Assembly: GCA_016188625.1 (NCBI GenBank) | Contig: JACPHL010000035.1 | Location: forward strand, 1-11,656 | From: Candidatus Rokuibacteriota bacterium | Lineage (GTDB): Bacteria; Methylomirabilota; Methylomirabilia; Rokubacteriales; JACPHL01 | DNA length: 11,656 nt | Reading direction: 5' to 3' | Shown here: positions 5,069 through 10,869 of the stretch, one piece after another | How the letters are laid out: each line of letters opens with the position of its first letter | Position numbering within the stretch: the stretch's first letter is position 1 | Notes under the pieces: model-generated | The model's database searches: none | The model's input: only the letters and a program-made list of their open reading frames with translations | Told to the model about the DNA's origin: nothing | Program-made: the position numbers and the translations under genes

Positions 5069-5890
5069 GTGAGCTCCGGCCGGGAGGCGCTCGTGCCCGT
5101 CGCGCGGCTACCACGAAGAGGCCAGCGGCCTGAAGAAGTGATCCCGAGCTCGAACGGCCGAGCCATCAAGGGGTCTCGCCCGAGGCCCGGATCCCGGGGG
5201 GCCGGCTCACGGACGGATCCCCCCCGAAGCCGCCTGTTATCTGAACGCGCCTACCTCGAGCTCCGCCGACGGATCATCTTTCAAGATTTCAAAGGCGGGC
5301 AGGCCCTGGACGAGATGTCGGCGGCCCGCGCCCTCAGGCTGGGCCGCACGCCCGTTCGAGAGGCGATCCAGATGCTGGCGAGGGACGGGCTGGTCAGGGT
5401 GTACGCCCGACGGGGAACCTTCGTGTCCGAGATGGGCCTGGAGGTCCTCCGCCAGGTGTGCGAGACCCGGGCGCCGATCGAGGAGCATGTCGCCCGGCGC
5501 GCCGCGCTGCGGGCCGAGGCCGCCGACATCGAAAAGATGCGCGGAGCCCTCGCGGGGGTTAACGCGCTGATCGAGCAGAGGCTCTTCCGGAATCTGGTCG
5601 AGGCCGACGAGCGATTTCACCTGGCGCTGGCGGAGGCCGCGAAGAATCCCCTGCTGCAGGAGCTGGTCGTCAAGCTCCACGGCCTGGCCATCCGATTCTG
5701 GTACCCCACGCTGACGCAGCGGTCCCTGGACGACATCCGCGAGGAGATGGCGCTGCACCAGCACGTCCTGGCGGCCGTTGAGGATCACGATCCGGATAGG
5801 GCGGCCCGGGCGATGCTCACGCTCGTGGGTGGTTTCTTTCACAGGGTCACCGAGGTCCTGAAGGGGACCCCGCCGGGCGCCACCGCGTGA
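5069..5890 (+). CDS. GntR-family transcriptional regulator, FadR subfamily (FCD domain)
   Basis: A DNA-binding regulator of 273 residues from GTG 5069. The winged helix-turn-helix runs from about residue 55 (SERAYLELRRRII) through LRLGRTPVREAIQMLARDGLVRVYARRGTFV, the standard GntR recognition-helix and wing signature. An all-helical FCD ligand-binding domain follows. 'EADERFHLALAEAAKNPLL' supplies the Asp and first His (D-x3-H), 'LHQHVLAAV' the next His and 'GFFHRV' the last, so a metal site for a carboxylate ligand looks complete. Such proteins usually sense organic acids and repress nearby catabolic genes, consistent with control of the decarboxylase genes starting 34 bases after its stop. 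The first ~50 residues are low-complexity (Arg/Pro/Gly/Ser) and unlike the family. GTG 5138 (residue 24) is the only later standard start before the HTH, so the true start is uncertain. Confidence 0.92.
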   Translation: MSSGREALVPVARLPRRGQRPEEVIPSSNGRAIKGSRPRPGSRGAGSRTDPPRSRLLSERAYLELRRRIIFQDFKGGQALDEMSAARALRLGRTPVREAIQMLARDGLVRVYARRGTFVSEMGLEVLRQVCETRAPIEEHVARRAALRAEAADIEKMRGALAGVNALIEQRLFRNLVEADERFHLALAEAAKNPLLQELVVKLHGLAIRFWYPTLTQRSLDDIREEMALHQHVLAAVEDHDPDRAARAMLTLVGGFFHRVTEVLKGTPPGATA

Positions 5891-5924
5891 CGCGGGTGGC
5901 CGGCAGGAGGGGGAGGGCGAGGCC

Positions 5925-7262
5925 ATGGACCTTCGCGCGTTTCTGACGGACCTCGAGAAGGCCGGGGAACTGATCCGCATCCGGAGGCCGGTAGATCCCC
6001 GGCACATCTCCGCCCTGACGGCCCAGTCCAAGAAGGGGGTCTACTTCGAGAAGATCCGCGGGTACGACATGCCGGTGGTGGCGGGGCTCGTCGGCACCAT
6101 GGACCGATTGGCGGTGGGGATGCACGCGCCCAAGGGGGCCATCGGGCGGCGCGTCTCCGAGGCCGTGCAGAAGCCGATCCCCCCCGAGGTGGTGAAGGAG
6201 GGGCCGTGCCAGGACGTGGTCCTCACCGGGACGGAGGTGGACCTCACCCGGCTTCCCCTGCCGCTCCAGGGCGAGATCGACGGAGGGCCCTACATCTCGG
6301 CGGGCATGACGATCGCCAAGGACCCCGAGTACGGCCGAAACGCCGGCTTCTACCGGTTCATGTACAACGACCCGACCCACCTCGGGATCGGGCTGACGGG
6401 CCCGTCGGACCTCCGGCTCTTCTACCAGCGCGCCCTCTCGGCCAAACGACCCGTCCCGATGGCCGTGGCGATCGGAACCCATCCCTCGGACATGGTCGCG
6501 GTGACCTACAAGGCCCCCGTGGGGTACGACGAGCTCGCCATCGCGGGAGGGTTGTGGGGCGAGCCGCTGGAACTGGTCCGGTGCAAGACCATCGACGCCG
6601 AGGCCCCGGCCAACGCCGAGATCGTGCTGGAGTGCGAGATCCTCCCCACCGGGTTCACCGTGGACGAGGGGCGGTTCGGCGAGTTCACCCGCTTCGTGGG
6701 AGAGCTGGTCCAGATGCCGCTGGTGGAAGTCAAGGCGATCACCCACCGGCGGGACGCCATCTTCCAGGTCATCCACATGCCCTGGGAGAACATCGTCCTC
6801 GACGTTCCGGTCTATGAGGCGATCGCCTGGAACATCCTGACGACCGCCGGCATCGAGGCCACGGCCATCAACGTCACCACGGGCGGGTGCGGGCAGTTTC
6901 ACGTGGTGGCGGCCATCAAGAAGCGCGGCGGGGAGGGAAAGAACGCGGTGCTGGCGCTCCTCTCGGCGGCCTCCTTCAAGTACGCGGTGGTGGTGGACGA
7001 GGACATCGATATCTTCGACCCCGACCAGGTCGAGTGGGCGATCTTCTCCCGGGTCCAGGCCGACCGCGACGTGATCATCGTCCCCGGGGCGCGGGCCAAA
7101 CCGCTGGACCCCTCGCTCCCTCCCGCCAAACCCCCCGCCCTCCCGCTGGGCGCCAAGCTGGGGATAGACGCCACCATCCCGGAATACGCCTACAAGGAGC
7201 GTTACACCACCATCACCTACCCGTTCATCAACGACGTGAAGCTGGAGGACTACCTCGACTGA
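5925..7262 (+). CDS. UbiD-family prFMN-dependent decarboxylase, first paralogue
   Basis: A 445-residue UbiD-family enzyme, cytosolic, expected to use prenylated FMN for reversible decarboxylation of an aromatic or alpha,beta-unsaturated acid. By motif comparison with fungal Fdc1 (R173-E277-E282), the catalytic triad is R144 (in NAGFYRF), E248 and E253 (in DEGRFGEFTRF), all intact. 'GGPYISAGMTIAKDP' and 'KLGIDAT' are further family signatures. N139 matches the cofactor-metal Asn, but the His expected about 18 residues after R144 is not evident (LTGPSDLR). A proline-rich stretch at 398-407 (LPPAKPPALP) precedes the conserved AKLGIDAT strand and is longer than in the second paralogue. A very strong ribosome site (AGGAGGGGGAGG) precedes ATG 5925, 34 bases after the regulator gene. 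The substrate is not determinable; ubiquinone-pathway UbiD is unlikely given two paralogues and a local regulator. Confidence 0.93.
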   Translation: MDLRAFLTDLEKAGELIRIRRPVDPRHISALTAQSKKGVYFEKIRGYDMPVVAGLVGTMDRLAVGMHAPKGAIGRRVSEAVQKPIPPEVVKEGPCQDVVLTGTEVDLTRLPLPLQGEIDGGPYISAGMTIAKDPEYGRNAGFYRFMYNDPTHLGIGLTGPSDLRLFYQRALSAKRPVPMAVAIGTHPSDMVAVTYKAPVGYDELAIAGGLWGEPLELVRCKTIDAEAPANAEIVLECEILPTGFTVDEGRFGEFTRFVGELVQMPLVEVKAITHRRDAIFQVIHMPWENIVLDVPVYEAIAWNILTTAGIEATAINVTTGGCGQFHVVAAIKKRGGEGKNAVLALLSAASFKYAVVVDEDIDIFDPDQVEWAIFSRVQADRDVIIVPGARAKPLDPSLPPAKPPALPLGAKLGIDATIPEYAYKERYTTITYPFINDVKLEDYLD

Positions 7263-7273
7263 AAGGGGAAGCG

Positions 7274-7498
7274 ATGCCACCGCCGAGCGAGATCGATCGG
7301 CTCGCGCAGCGTATCCTGGCCCTGGCCCGCCGGGGCCCGATCTTCTACTACGACATCCTCCGAGAGCTCCGGGACGAGGACTATCGCGCGATCATGCTCG
7401 CCTTCGGCCAGATCCGGCAGCAACAGCTCTTCGGGCGCGACGACAAGGGCTGTTACGTCCTGGCCGAGACCGGGAGGGAGGAGGGAGCCAAGGCATGA
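7274..7498 (+). CDS. Small unrecognised protein (74 aa) between two UbiD genes, winged-helix-like
   Basis: A 74-residue frame from ATG 7274, with AAGGGG a few bases upstream, to TGA 7496-7498. Its ATGA overlap with the second UbiD start couples their translation, and it lies 11 bases after the first UbiD stop. I do not recognise the family with certainty. The sequence reads as helix (EIDRLAQRILALARR), then GPIFYYDILRELRDE, a third helix (DYRAIMLAFGQIRQQ), then a beta-hairpin-like LFGRDDKGCYVLAE. This is the order of a small winged-helix domain. It has one cysteine and no CxxC, so it is not the zinc-binding VdcD/BsdD small subunit of hydroxyarylic acid decarboxylases, though its place in the operon is analogous. 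It could be a structural subunit, a cofactor-loading factor or a regulator. No function is assigned. Confidence 0.82.
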   Translation: MPPPSEIDRLAQRILALARRGPIFYYDILRELRDEDYRAIMLAFGQIRQQQLFGRDDKGCYVLAETGREEGAKA

Positions 7499-8865
7499 GG
7501 CAGGATCTCCGCTCGTTCGTGGAGGAGTACGGAAAGAGGTATCCCGGGGAGCTCGTCCGCGTCACCGAACCGGTCGATCTCCGGTTCGATCTCCAGGCGA
7601 TCGCGCTGGAGCTGGAGCGCCGCCGCCGGTTCCCCATTCTCCTGTTCGAGAATGTGGTGGGGCACGACATCCCGGTGATCTGCAACGTCATGGCCAGCCG
7701 GCGCGCCTTCGCCGCCGCCCTCGGGGTCGAGGAGGCGCAGATGCATTCCGAGTACTCCCGCCGGCTCACCGAGTACATCAAGCCGGTAGTGGTCCAGGAC
7801 CCGCCCTTCCGCCACACGATCATGAAAGGGGATCGGGTGGACCTGTCGAGACTGCCCATCCCGACCTATTTCCCGGGTGACGGCGGCCCCTATATCACGG
7901 CGGGCATGATCGTGGCCAAACACCCCGACACGGGGGGCGAGACCGAGGGCTACCACCGCTGCCAGGTCAAGGGGCGGGACAGGATCGGGATCAGCCTGCA
8001 CTCGCGCCGGCGGATGTTCGAATACCAGCGGCTCGCCGAGGCCCGCGGGAGGAACCTGGAGGCCGCCATCGTCCTCGGCCTGCACCCGCTCATCGGGATG
8101 GGCTCGCTGGCCTACCCGCCGCCTGAGATCTCCAAGTTCCAGGTGGTCGGCGGGCTGTTCCGGGAGCCGCTGCAGATCGCCCCCTGCGAGACCATCGACC
8201 TGATGGTCCCGGCGTGGGGAGAGATCGTCATCGAGGGCGAGATCCTGGCCGGGGTCAGGGAGAAGGAGGGGCCCTTCGGCGAGTTCACCGGCTACTTCTC
8301 CCGTCGGAGCACCGAGCACGTGCTCATGGTCAGGGCCATCTGCATGCGCGAGCGCCCGTGGTACCAGTCCATCAACTCCGGGCGGGCGCCGGATCACATC
8401 CTGCCGCTCGGCGTCCTCCGAGAGGTGGAGATCCGGAACGCCGTCAGCCGAGTGATCCCCAACGTCAAGGCCGTCCACGTTCCGACCTCGGGGTGCGCGG
8501 CCTTCACGGCCTTCGTCTCCATCAAGCAGACCCGCCCGGGCGAGGCCAAGCATGCCATCCCCATCGTCTTCGGGGTGGATCACTACCTGAAGCTCGTGGT
8601 GATCGTGGACGACGACGTGGACGTCTTCGACGAGTCCGAGGTCCTCTGGGCCCTGGCCACTCGCGTGCAGGCCGACCGCGACCTCGTCGTCATCTCGGGC
8701 AGTCTCGGAGCGATCCTCGACCCGTCGGCTACCGAGCAGGGGCTGACCGCGAAGATCGGCATCGACGCCGCCAGGCCATTCGGCCAATCCTTCCCCGAGA
8801 AGCTCCTCATGAGCCCTGAGAAGCTGGTATGGGCCCGCGAGGTCGTGGACCGGATAGGCGGGTGA
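7495..8865 (+). CDS. UbiD-family prFMN-dependent decarboxylase, second paralogue
   Basis: A 456-residue UbiD-family protein, clearly homologous to the 5925-7262 product but divergent along its length, so not a recent duplicate. The proposed triad is R155 (GYHRCQV), E258 and E263 (KEGPFGEFTGYF, the textbook UbiD motif). 'GGPYITAGMIVAKHP', 'VPTSGCAAFTAFVSIKQT' and 'GLTAKIGIDAA' are further signatures. At the position of the cofactor-metal Asn of Fdc1 (five residues before the Arg) it has T150, while a His (H169) is present near the second ligand position, the reverse of the first paralogue. A purine-rich ribosome site (GGGAGGGAGGAGGGAG) precedes ATG 7495, inside the 3' end of the small gene. 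It probably acts in the same pathway as the first UbiD, perhaps in one complex; this is inference from coupling. Confidence 0.93.
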   Translation: MRQDLRSFVEEYGKRYPGELVRVTEPVDLRFDLQAIALELERRRRFPILLFENVVGHDIPVICNVMASRRAFAAALGVEEAQMHSEYSRRLTEYIKPVVVQDPPFRHTIMKGDRVDLSRLPIPTYFPGDGGPYITAGMIVAKHPDTGGETEGYHRCQVKGRDRIGISLHSRRRMFEYQRLAEARGRNLEAAIVLGLHPLIGMGSLAYPPPEISKFQVVGGLFREPLQIAPCETIDLMVPAWGEIVIEGEILAGVREKEGPFGEFTGYFSRRSTEHVLMVRAICMRERPWYQSINSGRAPDHILPLGVLREVEIRNAVSRVIPNVKAVHVPTSGCAAFTAFVSIKQTRPGEAKHAIPIVFGVDHYLKLVVIVDDDVDVFDESEVLWALATRVQADRDLVVISGSLGAILDPSATEQGLTAKIGIDAARPFGQSFPEKLLMSPEKLVWAREVVDRIGG

Positions 8866-8877
8866 CGGGGAGATGCC

Positions 8878-8988
8878 GTGACGCTGGCCCTCGGTGTGGC
8901 CGATCGCGGGTCCGTCATGGAGACCGGGTGGATCGCCCCCTCCCGGGCGATCCCGTGTGTCAACCGGATGTGCGCTCGGGGAGGATAG
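8878..8988 (+). pseudogene. Possible remnant of a LivF-type ABC ATPase C-terminal region
   Basis: A 36-codon frame from GTG 8878 to TAG 8986-8988, in the gap between the second UbiD gene and ubiX. Residues 3-17 (LALGVADRGSVMETG) resemble the stretch after the H-loop in branched-chain amino acid ATPases (LivF: 'ALEIADRGYVLETGRI'). After that the similarity stops (WIAPSRAIPCVNRMCARGG). The Walker A, Walker B and ABC signature regions are all missing, so nothing functional as an ATPase remains. A GGGGAG sequence precedes the GTG, so a peptide might still be made. The resemblance is short and judged by eye, and could be chance. Confidence 0.4.
8930..8953 (+). other. 9-bp hairpin upstream of ubiX
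   Basis: GGATCGCCC (8930-8938) and GGGCGATCC (8945-8953) form a perfect 9-bp stem with a 6-base loop, 38 bases before the ubiX ATG. There is no T-run after it. It may set the relative expression of the UbiD genes and UbiX by RNA processing or attenuation; that role is inferred. Confidence 0.55.
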
Positions 8989-8991
8989 GTC

Positions 8992-9645
8992 ATGCCTACG
9001 CGTCTCGTCGTCGGAATCTCGGGGTCCAGCGGGGCCCTTTACGGCATCCGCCTGCTCCGGGTCCTGGCGCGCCGGCCCGAGATCGAGACCCACCTCGTCC
9101 TGACCAACCCGGCCAAGCGGACGATCCTGCACGAGACCGAGTTCACGATCCCGGAGGTCGAGGCCCTGGCCACCTGCGTCTACGACATCCGCGACATCGG
9201 CGCCGCCATCGCCTCGGGGTCGTTCAAGACCGTCGGGATGGTCGTGGCCCCCTGCAGCGTCAAGACGCTGTCGGCCATCGCCAACTGCTACGCGGACAAC
9301 CTCCTGACCCGGGCCGCCGACGTGACCCTCAAGGAGGGGCGCCGACTCGTGATCCTGCTCCGGGAGACCCCCCTGCACCTCGGCCACCTCCGCCTCATGC
9401 GGGCCGTCGCCGAGGCCGGGGGGGTGATCCTCCCGCCCGTGCCGGCCTTCTACCACCACCCCAAGACCATCGAGGACCTGGTGGACCACACGATCGGACG
9501 CGTGCTGGACCGGTTCGGGATCGAGCAGGGCCTGGTTCCTGAATGGCGGGGCTCCCGCCCCCCGGTACCGGCGCGGCGCCATGAAGCCGCCGTCGCAGAT
9601 CGATGCGCTCCGGCAGGTCGGGTGGTGGAGGCCGAGAGGGGCTGA
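8992..9645 (+). CDS. ubiX: UbiX-type flavin prenyltransferase
   Basis: Makes prenylated FMN by joining a dimethylallyl group to reduced FMN, the cofactor the two upstream UbiD enzymes need. All residues known to matter in Pseudomonas UbiX can be placed: S13 in GISGSSGALYG, E48 (HETEF), K114 (TLKEGR), R124-E125 (LLRETPLH), Y154 (FYHHP) and R170 (GRVLDRF). From K114 onward the offset to the Pseudomonas numbering is a constant 15. 'APCSVKTLSAIA' is another family signature. A strong GGGGAGG ribosome site precedes ATG 8992. The conserved protein ends near residue 186. The last ~31 residues (from about 9550) have no counterpart in the family as I know it and are encoded by palindromic DNA, so they look like read-through into former intergenic sequence. 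The gene may also serve other UbiD enzymes in the cell. Confidence 0.95.
   Translation: MPTRLVVGISGSSGALYGIRLLRVLARRPEIETHLVLTNPAKRTILHETEFTIPEVEALATCVYDIRDIGAAIASGSFKTVGMVVAPCSVKTLSAIANCYADNLLTRAADVTLKEGRRLVILLRETPLHLGHLRLMRAVAEAGGVILPPVPAFYHHPKTIEDLVDHTIGRVLDRFGIEQGLVPEWRGSRPPVPARRHEAAVADRCAPAGRVVEAERG
9545..9580. repeat. Cluster of three short dyads inside the ubiX 3' end
   Basis: Three dyads follow one another: GGCGGG/CCCGCC (9545-9550 with 9554-9559), the palindrome CCGGTACCGG (9562-9571), and GGCGC-G-GCGCC (9570-9580). They coincide with the point where conserved UbiX similarity ends, and look like intergenic palindromic DNA absorbed into the reading frame. Confidence 0.5.
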
Positions 9646-9656
9646 GGTGGTGGTCA

Positions 9657-10097
9657 ATGGAACTGCAGGAGAAGATTCGCGAGTATCTTGAGACGCACGA
9701 CGTGCTGACATTGGCCACGCTGGACGAGGGAGGACCCTGGGCCACGCCCCTGTACTACGTGAGCGACGACGCCCTGGATCTCTTCTTCCTCTCCGATCCG
9801 ACCACGCGGCACTGCCAGGCCGTCGCTCGAAACCCGAACGTCTCGGCGGCGATCCACGAGGAATCCGCCGCCTGGACCGACATCAGAGGACTCCAGCTCG
9901 AGGGACGGGTCCACCCCGTCGATGACGAGCAGGCAGCGGAGCGGGTCCTCGCCAGCTACACCGCCAAATTCCCCTTTGCCCTCGCCCTGGCCTCTCTCGA
10001 CGGGCCTCACCGGTTCTACCGTATCCAACCTCGATGGCTCCGTCTGATCGACAACTCCTGCGGCCTCGGCTTCAAGGAGGAGCTCCGGCTGAGCTGA
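9657..10097 (+). CDS. UPF0306/YhbP-like pyridoxamine-5'-phosphate-oxidase-fold protein
   Basis: A 146-residue protein of the FMN-binding split-barrel (PNPOx-like) superfamily. Similarity to E. coli YhbP (UPF0306) is visible in order: an N-terminal helix with 'HDVLTLATLDEGGPWATPLYYV' (first barrel strands), 'FFLSDPTTRHCQAVARNPNVSAAI', 'IRGLQLEGRVHPV' and a C-terminal 'RLIDNSCGLGFKEEL' matching the YhbP ending 'DNTLGFGKK'. Such proteins usually bind FMN or a related flavin; the reaction of UPF0306 members is not established. ATG 9657 is chosen because similarity begins right there and GAGGTGG precedes it. The frame is open upstream but reads low-complexity Gly/Arg. It starts 11 bases after the ubiX stop, so it probably belongs to the prFMN operon. 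The last 26 bases overlap the convergent VOC gene. Confidence 0.87.
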   Translation: MELQEKIREYLETHDVLTLATLDEGGPWATPLYYVSDDALDLFFLSDPTTRHCQAVARNPNVSAAIHEESAAWTDIRGLQLEGRVHPVDDEQAAERVLASYTAKFPFALALASLDGPHRFYRIQPRWLRLIDNSCGLGFKEELRLS

Positions 10098-10869
10098 GGG
10101 CTTCGAGCACGAGACGGGCGCCCATGGACTTCGCCTCGTCGAGGGGGCCCCCGGCTCCCGAGGCCGTCCTGAGCGTGGCGGCATAGGGGGAGGGCCCGTG
10201 GAGCCGGAGCCAGGCCGCGAGCGGGCCCGCGGCTCCCCGGGGCGCCACGAACTCGAAGGTGTGGGGGCCGATCGCGAAGCCCACCCCGGCGGCGTCGAGG
10301 TCGTCGCGCCGGACCTCCTGCCCGGCCCGCCGGAGGACGGCCGCATACCAGTGACGCACGGTCGCCACGTCATCGACGGCGACCGCGACCGTGCCGACGC
10401 CGCTCACCCGATTCCGCTGCGCCGTCTCCCTGGGGACGCGCTCCTCGCGCGGCGTCTCGTCCCGGATCAGGAACGGTGCCACGCCCCGATACCCTCCGCG
10501 GGGGAGCGCGAGCACCCAGCTCAGCTCGTACCCGTCGGGACGCACCCGGGTCAAGGGCGTCGGGTCGTCGATCTCCACGCCGGCCTCCCGGAAGGCCGCC
10601 GTGTCGGCGAGGAGGTCGTCCGTCCGCAGGCAGAAGTCCACCAGCCCGCCCCCGCGCTGGAGGGGCGCCCACCAGTAGTGCCCAGGGCTCGGCGCATAGA
10701 ACGCGATGAGCTCGAGGTAGGCGCCGTCGGCGAACGCGATCAACGCGTTGTGGGTGCCGACCGGGTGTCTCCCGCCCCGCACCACCGTGAACCCGAGCTC
10801 CGCGTAGCTCCGGCTCGCAGCCTCGAGGTCCCGGACCGCGACCACGAAGTGGTCAATCCCGATCAGCAC
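10072..10869 (-). CDS. VOC-superfamily protein, two-module glyoxalase-like domain
   Basis: A 265-residue protein with two vicinal-oxygen-chelate modules. The first opens with IGIDHFVVAVRDLEAASRSYAELGFTV (H7 as likely metal ligand), then GGRHPVGTHNALIAFADGAYLELIAF (E53), the signature of the Glyoxalase_3-type domain (PF13468). The second begins near residue 160 (VSGVGTVAVAVDDVATVRHWYAAVLRRAG) and is more degenerate. Proteins of this class include metal-dependent lyases, dioxygenases and non-enzymatic binders, so no reaction is assigned. The start is GTG 10869, with GGGGCGGGA upstream. Its 3' end overlaps the convergent split-barrel gene by 26 bases (10072-10097), so the two transcripts would be antisense there. 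It follows the methyltransferase in the same direction. Before the 17-bp duplication in that gene, the two frames would have overlapped by 17 bases. Confidence 0.88.
   Translation of the reverse strand: MLIGIDHFVVAVRDLEAASRSYAELGFTVVRGGRHPVGTHNALIAFADGAYLELIAFYAPSPGHYWWAPLQRGGGLVDFCLRTDDLLADTAAFREAGVEIDDPTPLTRVRPDGYELSWVLALPRGGYRGVAPFLIRDETPREERVPRETAQRNRVSGVGTVAVAVDDVATVRHWYAAVLRRAGQEVRRDDLDAAGVGFAIGPHTFEFVAPRGAAGPLAAWLRLHGPSPYAATLRTASGAGGPLDEAKSMGARLVLEALSSAGAPP

Follow-up and report, generated by a model that had tools for sequence, protein, structure and literature searches.

A predicted winged-helix protein as the likely separate subunit of an HmfF-like UbiD decarboxylase

Two UbiD genes, a gene for a 74-aa protein and a UbiX gene lie side by side in the DNA analysed here (the window), an entire 11,656-base contig of a draft genome (2.6 Mb, 84% complete), probably that of a Rokubacteria-type bacterium. 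We consider it likely that the first UbiD protein (UbiD1) and the 74-aa protein, a predicted winged helix, make up one prFMN-dependent decarboxylase, while the second UbiD protein (UbiD2) is a separate enzyme and UbiX serves both. This reading builds on the gene content of the window, the near-exclusive association of the small domain with UbiD1-type proteins, natural fusions of the two, the predicted fold, the separate lineages of UbiD1 and UbiD2 and their differing pocket residues. The genes concerned are the following.

5069 to 5890, plus strand: GntR/FCD regulator (PF00392 and PF07729), with an uncertain N-terminal start (GTG at 5069, 5093 or 5138)
5925 to 7262, plus strand: UbiD1, 445 aa, predicted HmfF-like UbiD decarboxylase of the MPWEN subfamily (TIGR00148, best PDB match 6h6v HmfF, tree, triad)
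7274 to 7498, plus strand: 74-aa predicted winged-helix protein, candidate separate C-terminal domain or subunit of UbiD1 (homologs fused to or directly downstream of UbiD; AF2 model)
7495 to 8865, plus strand: UbiD2, 456 aa, predicted independent UbiD decarboxylase with an HmfF-like His/Arg pocket (TIGR00148, 6h6v, orthologs, clade)
8992 to 9645, plus strand: UbiX flavin prenyltransferase, which makes prFMN (above curated NCBIfam cut-offs: PRK06029, 267 bits, cut-off 188; TIGR00421, 234 bits, cut-off 109)
9657 to 10097, plus strand: PNPOx/YhbP-like split-barrel flavin protein, putative role only (PF01243, E = 3e-18)
10072 to 10869, minus strand: Glyoxalase_3 (VOC) protein, a convergent neighbour (PF13468, E = 1e-39)

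All six genes from the regulator to the PNPOx gene were confirmed as plus-strand ORFs and, apart from that of the 74-aa protein, assigned to families, in agreement with the initial annotation, which had described them as a co-directional run with tight spacing. The spacing is indeed tight for most of the run (34 nt between the GntR gene and UbiD1, 11 nt between UbiD1 and the small gene, a 4-nt ATGA overlap between the small gene and UbiD2, and 11 nt between UbiX and the PNPOx start at 9657), but not between UbiD2 and UbiX, where a gap of 126 nt is the sole loose spacing. A promoter and terminator scan gave no signal above chance. At the start of the contig (347-2178, plus strand), two oligopeptide/nickel-type ABC permease genes, possible uptake genes, lie apart from the UbiD genes, with three genes of the opposite strand in between. 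Elsewhere in the genome there are two further flavoprotein (PF02441) genes and one further UbiD gene (contig C211, 744-2078), the product of which is ~30% identical to UbiD1 and UbiD2 and the open frame of which was counted with one TAG inside.

Both UbiD proteins match the three UbiD domains (UbiD_N, UbiD and UbiD_C) over their full length and above cut-offs (PF01977/TIGR00148), with TIGR00148 scores of 300 bits for UbiD1 and 345 bits for UbiD2 at a cut-off of 244.85. The closest solved structure for both is HmfF from Pelotomaculum thermopropionicum (PDB 6h6v), which is the best PDB match of UbiD1 (E = 1e-87, 42% identity) and aligns with UbiD2 at E = 7e-82 and 38% identity; the two window proteins are 34% identical to each other. 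The catalytic R-E-E(D) triad of HmfF is intact in both (R144/E248/E253 in UbiD1, R155/E258/E263 in UbiD2), as had been read from the sequence at the outset. The pockets, in contrast, differ. At the positions of HmfF H296 and R304, UbiD2 retains the pair as H301 and R309, whereas UbiD1 carries N289 and Y297 and departs from the HmfF pocket. The same division is seen in their relatives, with Asn at the H296 position in 95 of 98 UbiD1-type proteins and His in all 15 UbiD2-type proteins, across which the R304 equivalent is also kept. HmfF H297, which we take to be the same site as H296, is the counterpart of N318 in the pyrrole-2-carboxylate decarboxylase PA0254 and key to furan specificity (PMC7976604).

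Given these differences in pocket residues, UbiD1 and UbiD2 probably take different acids; the residues perhaps point to a pyrrole-like substrate for UbiD1 and a furan-like one for UbiD2, as a lead rather than an assignment. No hmf-type genes were recognised among the neighbours in the window. The window UbiD1 is only 46-54% identical to other UbiD1-type proteins and its function may therefore differ from theirs. We attempted to deduce a single substrate from the neighbours of these relatives and rejected the approach, as the neighbours vary (CoA ligase, thioesterase, TRAP/ABC uptake and luciferase-like monooxygenase genes, several of them named from sequence by eye). Plasmid collections held no close UbiD1 (best match 37%).

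Homologs in 12 of 95 genomes from its phylum, and far outside the phylum, mark the 74-aa ORF as a real gene. A search of genome contigs with the single small protein as query found nothing, and profile searches were needed. Within the phylum these yielded 21 copies of the small domain, all in the order to which the window belongs and each either immediately following a UbiD gene or fused to one. To avoid circularity, relatives of UbiD1 were gathered independently of the small protein, with a UbiD1 alignment and two UbiD motifs, and the small domain was present in 80 of the 80 loci of this motif-based collection. Over all loci, an HMM scored it in 105 of 105 UbiD1-type genes, a set that includes a few same-contig duplicates and loci first found through the small gene; in 75 it was fused to the C-terminus and in the other 30 it had its own ORF downstream, with one of the 30 (L047) resembling a UbiD1 fusion broken by a contig frameshift. 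The same loci contain 20 other UbiD ORFs in which the HMM scored no small domain, although one of these, from Neorhizobium (L115), showed a weak fused copy with a later, broader profile. The initial view of the small gene as a UbiD partner is thus borne out for UbiD1, with the domain mostly fused. Because natural fusions exist, the association is unlikely to stem from co-regulation alone.

When 25 whole genomes were searched with this broader profile, 48 of the 51 domain matches examined lay in or beside a UbiD gene. Two more (L225 and L226, on two Binatota chromosomes) share a gene run with UbiD1, from which a short-chain dehydrogenase gene separates them, an arrangement that fits a subunit working in trans; the small gene there, upstream of UbiD1, is itself preceded by an amidohydrolase-like gene. 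The last match (L227, about 5104-5391, minus strand, 42 bits) had no UbiD in its 12-kb stretch (~5 kb either way), and sits near enoyl-CoA hydratase and CoA ligase genes. Split and fused forms together span Rokubacteria, Myxococcota, Binatota, Chloroflexota, Acidobacteria, alpha- and betaproteobacteria and one archaeal MAG. Fusions also occur in the window's own order (L014/L015, L041; L016, L050), and two genomes (G005 and G007) carry a tandem of UbiD1, split small gene and fused UbiD1. A second, more distant UbiD lineage (12 genes; L211, L214-L224), scoring 290-353 bits to the UbiD1 model, has a fused C-terminal winged helix that matches the profile weakly.

The origin of the split form was approached through a 125-row quick tree, for which no root was inferred. 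Fused UbiD1 proteins formed one clade (97*) and split ones another (96*), with the window UbiD1 as a lone deep branch and UbiD2 in a separate clade (100*). The sister UbiD lineage is fused, which hints that fission came later than fusion. A frameshifted fusion in the window itself was considered and rejected, since UbiD1 ends level with other split UbiD1 proteins; the small gene's own start, the purine-rich stretch upstream of it and the many split relatives also contradict it.

UbiD2 is distributed differently. Of 60 genomes in the order, 41 have an ortholog of it (67-85% identical), in some genomes other than that of the window near TRAP/NMT1-type organic-acid transporters. Among 30 ortholog loci examined, the window alone has UbiD2 next to both a small gene and a gene of the UbiD1 type (0 of 29 others). 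At two other loci (G030:C22 and G034:C267), the UbiD2 ortholog is preceded by another UbiD, 37-38% identical to UbiD1, and by a UbiX 65-66% identical to that of the window, which is a different two-UbiD arrangement. Nevertheless, UbiD2-type genes (46-52% identical to UbiD2) lie no more than 9 kb from UbiD1 in 9 of the 80 motif-collected loci, directly upstream in five of them (L052, L055, L073, L099 and L125) and nearby in four more, against a chance expectation of ~0.6 loci if about two such genes per 5-Mb genome are assumed. As this is far above chance, the two UbiD proteins likely share a pathway, and the link between them that had first been noted holds to this extent.

A closer tie, in which the small protein joins UbiD1 and UbiD2 in one hetero-oligomer after the manner of the alpha, beta and gamma subunits of phenylphosphate carboxylase, would accommodate this neighbourhood, as well as the overlap between the small gene and UbiD2 and the presence of a UbiD2 ortholog in 12 of 12 small-gene genomes versus 41 of 60 overall (hypergeometric p = 0.006, uncorrected for relatedness); moreover, two UbiD-like subunits are found in the enzymes of D. 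anilini and T. aromatica (PMC7500099). We nonetheless regard it as unlikely. The domain tracks UbiD1 alone, the small gene is absent beside UbiD2 orthologs in 29 of 29 other loci, no UbiD2-type gene was found in the flanks of UbiD1 and its domain in 71 of 80 loci (some of these flanks end at contig ends), and both proteins have intact triads in different pockets. The initial annotation had proposed such a single enzyme and had named the two UbiD genes occurring routinely apart, without the small gene, as what would speak against it, which is largely what the UbiD2 orthologs show; its alternative of two, possibly sequential, enzymes is possible. A complex shared by UbiD1 and UbiD2 is likewise possible, though not needed. 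It is very unlikely that the winged-helix subunit couples two prFMN sites within such a hetero-oligomer so that the product of one is passed on to the other, for instance from a dicarboxylic heteroaromatic acid.

The remaining alternatives concern the 74-aa protein itself, which has no Pfam or NCBIfam match and belongs to a domain that no model of either covers. Its AF2 model (mean pLDDT 86.7) comprises three helices and a two-strand wing, i.e. a winged helix. The best structural matches, among many winged helices, were to the winged helix of Pyrococcus Rpa2 (Z 9.1 and rmsd 1.8 across 60 residues), which has been solved in complexes with primase and PolD; a profile of the small domain run against PDB sequences gave only chance-level matches (best E 0.057). 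In a natural fusion from Caballeronia (531 aa; L111), the model has an HmfF-like UbiD followed by a well-ordered C-terminal domain (mean pLDDT 90). The fold by itself reveals no function. Its resemblance to PadR- and ZitR-type regulators, among others, would suit a DNA- or RNA-binding regulator of the operon, or a domain that makes UbiD1 a trigger enzyme. However, a crude charge test placed helix 3, at the recognition-helix position, near neutrality (mean charge +0.7 to +0.85) and gave the domain core a slight negative charge (mean -0.65 to -1.3), which does not suggest DNA binding; together with the frequent C-terminal fusion to an enzyme and the GntR regulator that the operon already has, this makes a regulatory role highly improbable. 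A transient role on UbiD1 as a prFMN chaperone or maturation factor appears improbable as well. Small accessory proteins of UbiD/UbiX systems do include the prFMNH2 chaperone LpdD and the prFMN maturase PhdC/YclD, and such helpers can be encoded beside UbiD/UbiX genes (PMC10865409, PMC13040415), but their described folds (a Pba3-Pba4-like beta-sandwich in LpdD, an HpaC-like fold in PhdC) are unlike the predicted winged helix, and the fusion seen in the majority of members implies a lasting, equimolar partnership with the enzyme.

The two-protein decarboxylase that we favour has its nearest analogue in the vanillate/4-hydroxybenzoate decarboxylase VdcCD (Sedimentibacter, Bacillus; PDB 7ae4/7ae5), likewise composed of a UbiD protein and a small (<10 kDa) separate partner. 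VdcD is an integral, allosteric subunit, a zinc ribbon tightly bound to VdcC and believed to hold the catalytic loops (PMC8379154). The two small proteins differ, as the Cys4 zinc ribbon VdcD has two CXXC motifs, while the window protein has one Cys, is predicted to be a winged helix and belongs to a family often fused to UbiD; in addition, UbiD1 (256 bits) and UbiD2 (278 bits) score well below the exception-level cut-off of 650 for VdcC. HmfF, in turn, shares the triad with both window proteins and the H296/R304 pair with UbiD2, but its solved chain (448 aa) lacks the C-terminal winged-helix domain. In phenylphosphate carboxylase (alpha/beta/gamma/delta; Thauera aromatica) two UbiD-like proteins and a small protein are also encoded together, whereas the window small protein tracks only one UbiD. 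UbiD1 and UbiD2 reach 114 and 133 bits with the alpha model (cut-off 564.6) and 131 and 153 bits with the beta model (cut-off 468.95), and none of 50 small-protein family members had an NCBIfam match naming a gamma subunit at E up to 0.1, which confirms the initial verdict that this is not the phenylphosphate system.

Of the other neighbours, the PNPOx gene had been counted as part of the unit, a view that we abandoned because the UbiD1 and UbiD2 loci searched yielded no homolog of it. Its product is YhbP-like and gave weak matches to other PNPOx-fold proteins among PDB sequences (nearest E = 0.006) and none to PhdC. Glyoxalase_3 counterparts, 53-62% identical, are found near UbiD1 at four loci from other lineages (L054, L058, L108 and L127), where they adjoin a gene reading as a luciferase-like monooxygenase; owing to this recurrence, the Glyoxalase_3 protein may belong to the same pathway.

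We suggest the following mode of action. UbiX would make prFMN for both UbiD1 and UbiD2. The winged-helix protein, fused to the UbiD C-terminus in most subfamily members, would in this organism act as a separate subunit, most likely binding the UbiD1 core physically and in a fixed, presumably 1:1, ratio as a permanent partner. There it would most likely position or stabilise the core in a structural or allosteric, activating role, like that of VdcD for VdcC, and would most likely be neither a DNA-binding regulator nor a transient maturase. UbiD2 would probably act on another acid of the same pathway, with decarboxylation as the presumed physiological direction.

VdcD, the phenylphosphate carboxylase gamma subunit and LpdD have no sequence similarity to one another (PMC8379154), and PhdC is a different, HpaC-like maturase (PMC13040415). 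On this ground the modelled winged helix represents a further type of small UbiD helper, unlike VdcD, LpdD or the gamma subunit. The UbiD and UbiX genes are otherwise ordinary; what is unreported in the literature searched, which contained no paper joining UbiD with a winged-helix or helix-turn-helix partner, is a winged helix that, as subunit or domain, characterises a broad subfamily of UbiD proteins. In the absence of a Pfam or NCBIfam model for its family, the split subunit can go unannotated, and a UbiD protein of this kind expressed alone may look misleadingly inactive. The natural fusions offer a direct experimental handle on the winged-helix domain.
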